The notes beneath the pieces were generated by a model. That model was not told where the DNA came from. It did no database searches and worked only from the letters and a program-made list of their open reading frames with translations. DNA of 64,000 nt from contig NZ_BCNQ01000012.1 of NCBI RefSeq assembly GCF_001515525.1, positions 1 through 64,000 of the forward strand. Reading direction: 5' to 3'. Below are positions 5,642 through 37,628 of the stretch, in pieces; position 1 is the first letter of the stretch, and the number at the start of each line of letters is the position of its first letter. The stretch is from Piscicoccus intestinalis NBRC 104926 (GTDB lineage: Bacteria; Actinomycetota; Actinomycetes; Actinomycetales; Dermatophilaceae). Position numbers and translations under genes: made by a program.

Positions 5642-6625
5642 TCAGGCGTGCGCCGGGCCGACGACGAGGAGCGCGACGGACAGGGAGACGAGGGAGAGCA
5701 GCGTGGTCGCGAAGGCCGCGGCCGAGACGAACTCCTCCTCGTGGTGGCGGGCCGCGAGCAGCGGCAGGATGCTCATCGTCGGCGCCGACGCGGAGATGAC
5801 GGCCGCGGCGGCCAACACCGGCTCCAGCGGCGGCAGCCCCAGGCGCGGCACGAGGCCGGCGGCGCCGTACACGAGGACGGCCACCGCCAGCGGGTGCGCG
5901 ACGAGCTTGCCGACGAGCAGCGGGGCCACCTGCAGCGCCCGCCCGCCCAGGCTCTGGCCGACGAGCAGGCCGCCGATGACGAACAGCGCGGGGGCGGTCG
6001 CCGAGCCGGCGACCATGCTCAGCGTGCGATCCAGCGGCTCGGGCAGCGGCAGCCCCGACGCGGAGTAGGCCACGCCGAGCACGATCGCGATGACGAGCGG
6101 CTGGCGCACCAGCCGGGCGGCGATCTGGCGCGACAGCGCGAGCCGGCCCTGACCGTCTCCGGCGGCGCGCTCCGCGAGCACCAGGCCCAGCGGGATGCTC
6201 AGCAGGTTCTCGACGAGCACGTTCATGCCGAGCACGTGTCCGGCCTGCGCGGGCATCACGGCCTGCACGACGGGGTAGCCGACATAGCCCGTGTTCGACA
6301 CCGCCGACCCCTGCCCGATGTACGCCGCCCGCAGCCGTGCCCGCACGGGCGGCGCCGTGCGCTGGGTGAGCAGCGTGAGCCCGTACCCCACGGCCATCGC
6401 GACGAGCGACCCGAGCGCGTAGGAGAGCACGTACGTGGGCCGCACGACGTCGCCGAGCGGGTTGCGCGCGAGCACCCCGAACAGCAGCGCGGGCAGTGCG
6501 ATGTTGATGACGTAACCGCCCACGACGGCCAGCCCGGAGGCCGGGAACACCCCGGTGCGCACGGCGAGGTAGCCGATCGCCACGGTGAGATAGATCGGCG
6601 CGACGACGCCGAGAACCTCGTCCAC
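5642..6625 (-). CDS. AEC (auxin efflux carrier) family permease
   Basis: A 327-residue integral membrane protein with about ten hydrophobic segments in two halves, typical of the AEC/MleP group that exports or imports small carboxylates. Recognisable parts are PIYLTVAIGYLAVRTGVFP at the N-terminus, NTGYVGYPVVQAVM in mid-protein (the conserved N-x-G-x-x-G-x-P motif) and SASAPTMSILPLLAA near the end. GTG at 6625 lies 7 bp after the yqeY stop, so the two genes form an operon. Substrate cannot be told from sequence. Confidence 0.85.
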   Translation of the reverse strand: MDEVLGVVAPIYLTVAIGYLAVRTGVFPASGLAVVGGYVINIALPALLFGVLARNPLGDVVRPTYVLSYALGSLVAMAVGYGLTLLTQRTAPPVRARLRAAYIGQGSAVSNTGYVGYPVVQAVMPAQAGHVLGMNVLVENLLSIPLGLVLAERAAGDGQGRLALSRQIAARLVRQPLVIAIVLGVAYSASGLPLPEPLDRTLSMVAGSATAPALFVIGGLLVGQSLGGRALQVAPLLVGKLVAHPLAVAVLVYGAAGLVPRLGLPPLEPVLAAAAVISASAPTMSILPLLAARHHEEEFVSAAAFATTLLSLVSLSVALLVVGPAHA

Positions 6626-6632
6626 GGATGCG

Positions 6633-7088
6633 TCAGCGGGCCGCGAGGACCTTCTTCACCGCCGCGGCGACCCGGCCGCCGTCGGCGCGGCCGGCGACCT
6701 GGGCCTGCGCGGCCTTCATGACCTGACCCATCTGCTTCATGCCGGTCGCGCCCACCTCGTCGGCGGCGGCCGCCGCGATCGCGTCGAGCTCGGCGTCGTC
6801 GAGCTGCGCCGGCAGGTACGCCTCCAGGATCGCCAGCTCGGCGTTCTCCCGGTCGGCGAGCTCCGGCCGGCCGGCGTCGGCGTACGCGCTCGCCGACTCC
6901 TTGCGCTTCTTGGCCTCCTTGGCGAGCACCTTGAGCACCTCGTCGTCGCTCAGCTCGTGCGCCGCCGTGCCTGCCACCGAGGCGGTCTGGATGGCGGTCA
7001 GCGCCATCCGCAGCGTCGCCGAGCGCACCTGGTCGCGCTCGCGCATCGCGGTGTGCAGGTCGTGCTGGATCGTGTCCTTCAGGGTCAT
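6633..7088 (-). CDS. yqeY: YqeY/GatB C-terminal-like protein
   Basis: A 151-residue soluble protein of the YqeY family, which resembles the C-terminal tail domain of the GatB amidotransferase subunit. It opens with MTLKDTIQHDLHTAMRERDQVRSATLRMAL and has LEAYLPAQLDD plus MGQVMKAAQAQVAGRADGGRVAAAVKK, all family hallmarks. The family is thought to bind tRNA, but its role is not firmly known. It is first gene of a probable two-gene operon with the AEC permease. Confidence 0.92.
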   Translation of the reverse strand: MTLKDTIQHDLHTAMRERDQVRSATLRMALTAIQTASVAGTAAHELSDDEVLKVLAKEAKKRKESASAYADAGRPELADRENAELAILEAYLPAQLDDAELDAIAAAAADEVGATGMKQMGQVMKAAQAQVAGRADGGRVAAAVKKVLAAR

Positions 7089-7647
7089 GAGCCCATCCTC
7101 TCGCGTCGCCCCGCGCGGCCTCCACGCGATATCGGCCGCCGCCCTCGGGCCAGCTCGGGCCCCTTCGACCCCCTCGGATCGCCTCGGTCCCCCGCGTGCC
7201 CCCGCGAAACCCCGCCCGAACCCCCTCGTGCCCCTTCGTGCCCCCTCGTGCCCCCGGCCGGCCGTTCACCCCCGAAGACGGTGGTAAATCCCGCCGCGCA
7301 GACGCGGCAGATTTACCACCCTGTTCGGGCTCCCGACACGCCGCCGGCGGGCACCTCCATCTTGCCTGCGCGACACTCACGTTTACCGAGTCTCGGCTCG
7401 GCACGAAAACGTCTGTCCGGGACCCGGTTCCACGCCCGCCACTAGCCGGTCGACCGGCGTTCACGAACGTTCGACCTGCAGTTTTACGAATCGATGAAAA
7501 GTTCTTCTCCACAACGTTATTCATCGTTGGCCGGGACGTGATCGACCGCGATCTACCCTGGAGTAGTGAGCCGCTGAGGGCGGCGCTCACCGGCGCCCGG
7601 AGTCGCCGGGCGCCATGGGACCAGCGTGCAGGGCGGGGTGAACCGGG
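7089..7647. other. Intergenic region with low-complexity tract and hairpin
   Basis: Non-coding spacer between divergent yqeY and the LytR_C gene. 7140-7260 is low complexity, built of CCCTCGTGCCCC-like units. The family B hairpin follows at 7271-7329. 7480-7560 is locally richer in A+T and is the likely promoter zone for the LytR_C gene, though I cannot assign a -35/-10 pair. Confidence 0.6.
7271..7329. repeat. Family B hairpin, copy 1
   Basis: Left arm 7271-7298 and right arm 7303-7329 pair almost completely around a 4-nt loop; the outer parts are CCCGAA and TTCGGG and the inner parts GGTGGTAAATC and GATTTACCACC. Copies at 16759-16820 and 50920-50977 share GCAGACGCGGCAGATTTACC on one strand or the other. 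Intergenic in all cases. Confidence 0.8.
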
Positions 7648-34703: not shown

Positions 34704-35620
34704 TTAGTAGCGCGCAACGCGCCACCCGGGCTCGGCGCGCAGTTGCGCCTCCAGCGACAGGGGTCCGACGAACAGGGCGGCGGCCCACACGTCGGACCAC
34801 AACACCGACGGGCCCCACACGCTGACGCTGCCCGTCCACGGCACGGGCTCACCGGTGGCTGGGTCGAGCAGGTGCGCCCCGCGGGCGGCGGTGCCGGAAT
34901 GGCCAACCCGCCGTAAGTCAGCTCGACGACTCGGGCGACGCGCCCGGGCACGTGCGGGTCCTCGACGGCCAGCCGCCACGGCCGGTCGGCCGCGCCGCCC
35001 TCGCGGCCGCCGACCGCGATGTCGCCGCCGGCGTTGAGGCAGAACGTGAGTCCCTCGCCGACGCCGGCGAGTTCGGCGAGCACGGTGGCGGCCCGCTCGA
35101 TGGCCCAGCCCTTGACGAGCCCGGTCGGCTCGATGAGCAGCTGCCCGGCTGACTCCGGGTCGGAGCCGGGCGCCGGCCACAGCCAGCGGAACGCGCCCTC
35201 GGTGCACCGGGACGCCTCCTCGCACAGCGCGAAGACCTCCTCCATCGCGTCGGCCGCCGCCGGGTCGTCGATGCGCAGGTCGGTGACGGTCAGCTCGCCG
35301 CGGCGAATCCGCGACAGCGGGCTGTCGGGCTCCCACAGGCTGAACGTCTCGTCGACCCAGACCAACTCGGCGAACGCGGTCTCGACGATCGCCTCGACGC
35401 GATGCTGCCAGCGGGGGTCGCGGGCCTGCGGGCCGCGCACGTGGATGCTGATCGGCATGCCCATGATCTGGCGCACGAACGCGCGCTTGTCGGGGGCTCC
35501 GGCCGGGACGGGAGCCGGTGTCGAGACCGGGGCCGACCAGGCCGCGGCGGGCACCGTCGTCGGGTCGGTCGGGCCGGCAGCAGCCACCGGGCGCACGGGG
35601 ATCTCCATCGTCGCGCTCAT
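34704..35620 (-). pseudogene. apbE: FAD:protein FMN transferase (ApbE) interrupted by an apparent -1 frameshift
   Basis: ApbE transfers FMN from FAD to threonine in partner proteins. The first about 240 codons read normally (GMPISIHVRG, VWVDETFSLWEPDSPLSRIRRGELTV, LCLNAGGDI-like motif). Then at 34894-34904 one base seems missing: the frame after ELTYGGLA switches to a non-homologous one, while the correct C-terminus (SGTAARGAHLLDPATGEPVPW, WSDVWAAALFVG) continues in the next frame to a stop at 34704. This may be a true mutation or a base-calling error. ATG at 35620 overlaps the FMN-binding gene's stop. Function depends on which is right. Confidence 0.72.
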
Positions 35621-36150
35621 CACAGGTTCGCCTGGTCGAGCGCGGACTGCAGCGAGGTGATGTAGCCCTGGCTGGTGAAGGTGGCGCCGGAGACGCTGTC
35701 GATGGTCGCGCCCTGAGCCTGCACGGTCTCGTCCTCCAGCACCGGCACCGCGCGGCTGTTGATCATCGCGTCGTGCCCGTCGGTGTTCGGGTACTCGACC
35801 GCGGTGGCCGCCGTGATCTTGCCCCCGGAGACGGTGATCTGCACCTGCACCGGCCCGTACCGCGTGTCGACGGCCTCGCCGGTGTAGGTCTGCTCCGAGC
35901 TGCTCGACGAACTCGAGCCCGTCGAGCCCGTCGAGCCGGTCGACCCCGTCGAGCCGCTCGAACCGGTGCCGCCGGCCGCGGAGGCCGAGCCCGACCCGGA
36001 GGCGGCGCTCGGGGAGCTCGCGGAGGCGGTGCCGGTGGCGGCGGTGCCGGCGGCGGCGTTGTTGCCGGCGTCGAAGCCGAAGGCGAGCATCGCGATCGAC
36101 GGCGTGCTCATTCCCACGAACACGTTGCGCTTGAGGCGTTTGTCGGACAT
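35620..36150 (-). CDS. Membrane-anchored FMN-binding domain protein
   Basis: 176 residues. An N-terminal hydrophobic anchor (about 9-28), a Ser/Gly/Thr-rich linker (30-87) and an FMN-binding domain (88-176). The flavinylation motif DSVSGAT is at 151-157, with Thr157 the likely FMN attachment site for ApbE. Domain-family members such as NqrC/RnfG use this covalent FMN for electron transfer on the outer face of the membrane. AGGAGAACA precedes ATG at 36150. Overlaps apbE and follows the ferric-reductase-like gene by 41 bp: one operon. Confidence 0.86.
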   Translation of the reverse strand: MSDKRLKRNVFVGMSTPSIAMLAFGFDAGNNAAAGTAATGTASASSPSAASGSGSASAAGGTGSSGSTGSTGSTGSTGSSSSSSSEQTYTGEAVDTRYGPVQVQITVSGGKITAATAVEYPNTDGHDAMINSRAVPVLEDETVQAQGATIDSVSGATFTSQGYITSLQSALDQANL

Positions 36151-36191
36151 TGCTGTTCTCCTGAAGAGTCGGTCGAAAGGTCGGGTCGCCG

Positions 36192-37628
36192 TCAGTAGGC
36201 GAAGCGTTCGAGGTGCACGTGGTCGGCGTCGACGCCGAGGTCGGCGAGGGCTGCGGTGACGCGGTCCATCCACTCGGGGGCGCCGCACACGTAGACGTCG
36301 GCGTCGCGGATGTCGGGCGCGAGGGTGAGGATCGCCTCGGCGTCGCCGAGCTGCGCGGCCCACTCCTGCGGGAGCCAGGAGTCCCGCCCGGTGGCGCGGT
36401 GGCCGGCGACCAGCCGCAGCTGCGCGCCGCGGTCGGCGGCGGCCCGGCTCACCTCGGGCAGCAGCGGCACGTCGTCGCCGGCGCCGGCGCGGTAGACGAG
36501 GGTCACGTCACCCGGAGCCTGTTCCAGGCCCTCGAGCAGCGACTTCATCGGCGCGACCCCGATGCCTCCGGCGAAGAGCACGACGCGGCGGCGGGTGCGC
36601 ACGCCGGGGTGCATGCGGCCGTAGGGGCCCTCGATGGCGACCCGGGTGCCCGGCTCCAGGTCGGCCAGTTCGCGGCTGCCGTCGCCGACGGCGGCGACGC
36701 TGATCTGCAGCGTGCGGCCGTCGGGCGCGGCCGACAGCGAGTAGGGGTGGGCGCGAGTCCACCCCGGCCGACCGAGGAAGCGCCACTGGAAGAACTGCCC
36801 GGCCTGCGCGTGCAGCCGGTCGAGGCGGCGGCCGGTCATCGTCACGGTCGTGACGGCGCCTCGGGTGCGCACGCCGGTCACGACGAGGCGGTGGCGGCGG
36901 GTGCGGTACAGCGGCACGAGCACCCGGAAGAGCAGCATCGAGCCGGCCGCGGCGATCCACAGCGCCCACCAGTAGGCGGAGGCGACCGGCGAGTTCTCGA
37001 AGTCGGTGCCGCTCCACAGCTGGTGCGGCACGGCGAAGAACACGCCGAGGTAGGCGTACAGGTGCAGCAGGTGCCACGTCTCGTAGCGCAGCCGCGAGCG
37101 CACGGCGCGCACCGAGGTGACCAGCACGAGCAGCAGGCAGGCGGTGCCGAGCGCGGCCATGAGCATGCCGGGCCAGGTCCAGATCATCGTCCACAGCGTG
37201 GAGAGGACGGTGCTCGTCGAGCCGGCCTCGCCGGCGACGGAGAGCGCGATGTGGGCGCCCATGAGCGTGACCGAGCTGATGCCGAGTTCGGCGTGCGCTC
37301 GGGCCAGGTCGTCCTGGCCGAAGACGCGCTCCACGAACGGGATCCGCGCCATGAGCAGCGTCTGGATGAGCAGCAGGTCGGAGGCCAACAGGGCGGTGAG
37401 CCGGCCGGAGGTGCTCAGCACGTCCCACACGGTTGTCAGCCCGACCAGGCCGCCACCGGCCAGCCACAGGGTGACGACGACGAGCAGGCTGGCCCACACC
37501 AGGGCCTGACAGGCCACCGGCCACCAGGCCGGCACGTCGTGCGAGCGCGGGCCGTCGAGGTGAGACGGCGGGGCCGGGGTGAGGACCGGGCGGTCGGTCG
37601 GCCGCGTCCGGGTCTGCGTATCTGACAT
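36192..37628 (-). CDS. Ferric-reductase-like transmembrane protein with FNR domain
   Basis: 478 residues. About six helices (36-250) form a ferric-reductase-like haem-binding domain with candidate ligands His112, His126, His186 and His189. An FAD-binding barrel (FNR type, RAHPYSLS at 292-299) and an NAD(P)-binding domain follow, with GGIGVAPMKSLLEGL and the closing YVCGAPEWM motif. It would pass electrons from cytoplasmic NAD(P)H through FAD and haem outward, here most plausibly to the FMN-binding protein encoded next. First gene of the operon with the FMN-binding protein and apbE. Confidence 0.86.
   Translation of the reverse strand: MSDTQTRTRPTDRPVLTPAPPSHLDGPRSHDVPAWWPVACQALVWASLLVVVTLWLAGGGLVGLTTVWDVLSTSGRLTALLASDLLLIQTLLMARIPFVERVFGQDDLARAHAELGISSVTLMGAHIALSVAGEAGSTSTVLSTLWTMIWTWPGMLMAALGTACLLLVLVTSVRAVRSRLRYETWHLLHLYAYLGVFFAVPHQLWSGTDFENSPVASAYWWALWIAAAGSMLLFRVLVPLYRTRRHRLVVTGVRTRGAVTTVTMTGRRLDRLHAQAGQFFQWRFLGRPGWTRAHPYSLSAAPDGRTLQISVAAVGDGSRELADLEPGTRVAIEGPYGRMHPGVRTRRRVVLFAGGIGVAPMKSLLEGLEQAPGDVTLVYRAGAGDDVPLLPEVSRAAADRGAQLRLVAGHRATGRDSWLPQEWAAQLGDAEAILTLAPDIRDADVYVCGAPEWMDRVTAALADLGVDADHVHLERFAY

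Follow-up and report, generated by a model that had tools for sequence, protein, structure and literature searches.

The window, a stretch of 64,000 nucleotides, carries on its minus strand an operon in the order reductase gene, FMN_bind gene, apbE. The first gene (36192-37628) codes for a ferric-reductase-like (MsrQ-like) membrane protein with an NAD-binding domain (Pfam PF01794, Ferric_reduct, and PF00175, NAD_binding_1). It is followed by the gene for an FMN_bind protein (PF04205; 35620-36150) with a Ser/Gly/Thr-rich linker, whose hydrophobic N-terminal stretch and positively charged N-flank point to a membrane anchor. Its DSVSGAT sequence, encoded at 35680-35700, conforms to the flavinylation motif [S/T]GA[S/T] described in PMC8238504. 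The start of apbE, which extends over 34704-35623 when both of its frames are counted, overlaps the stop of the FMN_bind gene. Pfam matches and sequence both bear out this composition, as given in the original prediction. On the plus strand, a gene for an NADPH-dependent FMN reductase-like protein (PF03358; 34038-34670) converges on the end of apbE.

Extracellular electron transfer of the Listeria type has dedicated membrane and dehydrogenase genes of its own. Like the Gram-positive, flavin-based system of Listeria (FmnB/PplA), the window operon is built to send electrons through the membrane to an outer protein with covalently attached flavin, but its membrane part is ferric-reductase-like (PF01794). 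The closer match is the MsrQ-like flavinylation system, described from 1797 clusters in 1468 genomes and as broadly conserved in Actinobacteria, in which PF00175 is frequent (1437 of the 1797 clusters) and not obligatory (Meheust et al. 2021, eLife, PMC8238504). Systems of this kind are further expected to have two haem sites, six transmembrane helices and a target gene with a predicted signal peptide or lipidation. The window has a PF01794 protein that also carries PF00175, an FMN_bind protein with the [S/T]GA[S/T] motif and an adjoining, frame-broken apbE. Judged by its domain content, the set is an MsrQ-like flavinylation operon of the kind already described, with the same PF01794 + PF00175 protein, FMN_bind gene and apbE in the cluster; it departs from the published systems in that its apbE is broken (PMC8238504). 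Flavin-based transfer across the membrane, as first proposed for this locus, is thus retained, and the set fits the actinobacterial MsrQ-like system rather than the Listeria-type one.

The electron path would then follow the published MsrQ-like model. The FAD/NAD domain of the ferric-reductase-like protein, on the cytosolic side, would take up electrons from NAD(P)H, and two b-haems would carry them across the membrane. His 112, 126, 189 and 202 are invariant in an alignment of 12 reductases; as candidate haem ligands, these four residues would fit two haems. The next carrier would be the FMN bound covalently to the anchored outer protein, from which the electrons might pass to an acceptor outside the cell, for instance ferric iron. 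Attachment of FMN to the anchored protein would be the task of ApbE.

Frame break and metal site of apbE

The N-terminal frame of apbE (34901-35623, minus strand), assigned by PF02424 and by alignment, reads ...ELTYGGLA up to 34901, and the remainder of the protein, SGTAARGAHLLDP and onwards to the stop (34704-34898, minus strand), starts at 34898 in a different frame. Two bases, 34899-34900, are left over between the frames in place of the Thr codon of the conserved ATSG motif, which is uninterrupted at this position in the aligned relatives. The C-terminal frame on its own (34704-34904) matches positions 207-248 of the ApbE profile with 27.1 bits (cut-off, 25.6). The frame break is therefore confirmed where it had been predicted, at 34894-34904, as is the continuation of the correct C terminus in another frame. 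It is not a product of chance, because the two halves are parts of a single Pfam family, sit in adjacent frames and cover successive profile positions. The PF02424 domain does not lie in a single frame, as it would in a functional transferase. When the N-terminal piece was compared with solved structures, no match was obtained at E 0.01; the ApbE of one relative matches known ApbE structures.

A scan of the 64-kb window for frame switches returned the apbE site as the sole candidate. The scan recovered 35 of 60 simulated deletions, so that other frame switches in the window could go unseen. The break lies outside any long homopolymer, and no slippery run was apparent by eye. As ACT makes up about 2% of the Thr codons in this genome, the two leftover bases are poorly explained by the loss of one base from a usual Thr codon.

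A second defect affects the metal site. In the ApbE of T. pallidum, Mg2+ is held by Asp284, Ala162 and Thr288 (PMC5655446). The alignment is ungapped in this region; the window ApbE keeps the Asp corresponding to Asp284 and has an Ala codon (34779-34781, minus strand) at the position of Thr288, and hence lacks one residue of the Asp/Thr pair expected of a functional enzyme. Thr occupies this position in 56 of the 57 other family rows, the remaining row being a gap at a contig end. With gapped rows dropped, it is also found in all 68 rows from the set of 80 reductase relatives described below, some of whose genomes are shared with the family rows, and in all 25 rows of another apbE lineage. Across the compared sets, Ala at this position is thus restricted to the window. 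The other lineage has Asn (24 rows) or Glu (1 row) at the Asp-ligand position, which indicates that the metal site is not frozen; the Thr is nonetheless kept there. The break is hence a genuine concern, as proposed at the outset, but not the only one, and a frame repaired by resequencing would by itself still leave an abnormal active site.

ApbE genes in related genomes

A PF02424 search of the window's genome, a draft in 336 contigs estimated to be 97.81% complete, found no second ApbE, although given the draft status such a gene could be absent from the assembly. The expectation that FMN attachment would need another ApbE is supported. In our family sample, FMN_bind occurred in 58 of 119 genomes, and all 58 had an ApbE match, that of the window being the broken one; intactness in the other 57 was checked for fetched loci only. 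Two genomes of the same genus (G001 and G002) lack FMN_bind, and their matches to the reductase are weak and confined to its NAD domain; they thus provide no closer copy of the operon for comparison.

We fetched 60 stretches around family apbE matches or relatives and used 53 of them (within L036-L091), leaving aside divergent or contig-cut loci (L086, L090, L092, L094) and those without a match to the window genes (L081, L093, L095). The order reductase, FMN_bind, ApbE is common to these 53 relatives, and apbE is in a single frame in every one of them. Three of four further loci of the same lineage also have a whole apbE, which brings the total to 56 of the 57 family loci examined. The exception, L234, lies on a 3,028-base contig (G085:C546) of a genome that is 68% complete; its apbE is split into three frames at a site different from that of the window, and an intact copy is present in L235 of the same genome.

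The search was widened to relatives of the reductase, with the best 80 of at least 586 records kept. They range from Humibacillus, Knoellia and Phycicoccus to Propionibacteriaceae, Frankiales, Geodermatophilus and Microbacterium. An ApbE match was present in 69 of the 80 loci. One of the 69, L168 (Geodermatophilus sp. TF02-6, 5700-7100), carries an apbE of the same lineage that is frame-broken at a different site from the window's. The other 11 loci, some of them at contig ends, had no ApbE match, and all 11 had the FMN protein. Ten genomes, those of nine of these eleven loci and of L168, were searched for ApbE elsewhere, and all ten had it. Broken apbE copies thus occur in other genomes, each with a spare ApbE, and no such spare was found in the window's genome. 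Reductase-FMN_bind pairs with no adjoining apbE match were seen in L137, L148, L152, L158, L160, L163, L167 and L169; ApbE was present elsewhere in all eight genomes.

Iron control through a DtxR/IdeR-type box upstream of the reductase gene was rejected, as boxes in 55 relatives were no better than in shuffled sequence; in the window, the box had 10 mismatches to the consensus. The commonest additional real-looking neighbour, which we take to be DUF255/YyaL-like, occurs in 30 loci of the set made up of the 53 relatives and the window, and less frequent clusters in at most 17. This neighbour was not seen in the window between 29000 and 43500, and inspection by eye of the 14 neighbour clusters listed revealed no iron transporter.

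Sequence error or loss of flavinylation

We assessed how prone the assembly is to frame errors. Scans of 400 kb each yielded six frame-switch candidates for the window's genome and two for a relative assembled in one contig. Read by eye, four of the six look real and two false, and both candidates in the control look like breaks. The four likely breaks elsewhere in the window's genome lie in L186 (around 7200), L187 (around 6212) and L197 (around 3958 and 19376), and presumably affect an ABC-2 type permease, a CPBP protease and two HNH/DUF222 genes. The 85 ABC_tran matches in the genome comprise 76 nearly whole and 9 partial ones, none with an internal stop, and no complementary ABC_tran parts in neighbouring, different frames were found among the 150 of 161 candidates that were scored. 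The genome is therefore not riddled with frame errors, but its rate may exceed that of the control. Within apbE, conserved sites were changed at 2 of 34 positions in the N-terminal piece and 2 of 21 in the C-terminal piece (the Thr to Ala change and one Ala to Ser). In leave-one-out comparisons, the window ranked 10/54 for the N-terminal piece, 2/54 for the C-terminal piece, 6/54 for the reductase and 54/54 for the FMN protein. General decay of the operon is unsupported by these ranks, the conserved sites being otherwise normal.

On this evidence, which comes from one draft assembly of one strain, we consider a real loss of ApbE moderately probable, and more so than an assembly error. An error of assembly or base calling would mean that the strain has a whole, working apbE. 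Such an error would not be out of place in a single draft of 336 contigs, most conserved sites to either side of the break are normal, and the excess of frame-switch candidates over the control, four of the six looking real, points the same way. However, the Ala at the Mg2+ position does not depend on the frame and is unique in the compared sets, so that one insertion or deletion error cannot account for it; the loss of this ligand lowers the odds of a simple sequencing slip. The absence of long homopolymers at the break and the ABC_tran matches, none interrupted or split between neighbouring frames, also argue against an error, which we regard as unlikely although deserving of serious consideration. 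The break in L234 does not shift this assessment, because it shows that breaks happen, not that they are real.

A real break might also be harmless if another ApbE, encoded in unassembled sequence, did the job. The ten genomes with a missing or broken operon apbE, that of Geodermatophilus L168 included, all carry ApbE elsewhere, and G085 combines a broken copy with an intact one. Nevertheless, no such gene was found in a genome that is 97.81% complete, and we hold this explanation to be improbable. It is very hard to credit that a programmed ribosomal frameshift yields full-length ApbE. Both frames are conserved and their homology is continuous, as such a mechanism would require, but the gene is in a single frame in 53 of 53 relatives, no slippery run was seen by eye, and the Thr to Ala change would strike the active site in any case.

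Loss of ApbE is the reading that we prefer. The enzyme would be inactive in the cell, with its frame broken in the ATSG motif and Ala in place of the Thr ligand of the catalytic Mg2+, and the FMN protein would then lack covalent FMN unless an ApbE gene is present in unassembled sequence. The flavin step of the operon has thus probably been lost, and the loss would be recent since both pieces otherwise resemble ordinary family members. What is new here is the break of apbE in a family where the gene is in one frame at 56 of 57 loci and the one other broken copy has an intact counterpart in its genome, the replacement of Thr by Ala and the finding of no other ApbE. In practical terms, annotation can mark the gene as probably a pseudogene within a system already known, and the strain may serve as a natural knockout of flavinylation.

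Site of ApbE action and a second apbE lineage

In our judgement, the question of where ApbE works and the tiny -GS proteins described below deserve more attention than the frameshift. The stretch preceding the ApbE domain has a median length of 28 residues and is hydrophobic at the threshold used in none of the 53 relatives. By hydropathy, the FMN proteins of 52 of 53 relatives have a hydrophobic N terminus. The anchors of these proteins have a mean net charge of 2.09 on the N-side flank and 0.26 on the flank behind, the former being higher in 43 of 54, and an RR pair precedes the anchor in 48 of 54, the 54 including the window protein, which has none. ApbE of this operon type hence looks cytosolic, with the domain that serves as its substrate outside. 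We treat this as a lead, because hydropathy is no signal-peptide predictor.

According to a 2025 review (PMC12052999), ApbE is as a rule a periplasmic, membrane-anchored enzyme; cytosolic forms also occur, one being that of Klebsiella, which acts on a soluble fumarate reductase. FmnB of Listeria acts outside the cytosol. Like the Klebsiella enzyme, ApbE of the operon type is without a signal peptide, as judged by hydropathy; in contrast to the soluble fumarate reductase, its substrate would be an anchored outer protein. In the literature, surveyed mostly at the level of titles and abstracts, we found no treatment of a signal-less ApbE paired with an outer substrate. Throughout this actinobacterial operon type, a cytosolic ApbE might attach FMN before or during export of the acceptor, a proposal that we advance tentatively and with more doubt than confidence. 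The RR pair in most acceptors would perhaps fit an export route for folded proteins. If the proposal is correct, export of FAD would be unnecessary, and this strain, with its enzyme lost, would offer a natural test of whether an exported acceptor can function when covalent FMN is missing. The combination of a signal-less ApbE with an outer substrate makes the site of ApbE action directly testable.

A second apbE lineage (loci L004-L034, including one in the same-genus genome G001) has a tiny Ser/Thr-rich protein on one side and on the other a short Ferric_reduct protein, the latter matched after apbE in 26 of the 31 loci. The tiny protein is single-pass and encoded just upstream of apbE (at 2439-2852 of L004 in G001). 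Searches of the tiny proteins at E 0.1 gave no family match, either for three of them against NCBIfam or for two sets against Pfam, one of two sequences (L004 and the C-terminal 84 residues of L017) and one of four. Within the family sample, 17 of the 75 ApbE-bearing genomes are without FMN_bind. The C-terminal end of the tiny protein is -GS in 20 of 25 loci examined (L015 left out; three gave nothing). These proteins may represent minimal, so far unrecognised FMN acceptors for apbE genes without an FMN_bind partner. Those of L022 and L012 end in -TGAS and -SGAS, respectively, which correspond to the known [S/T]GA[S/T] motif.
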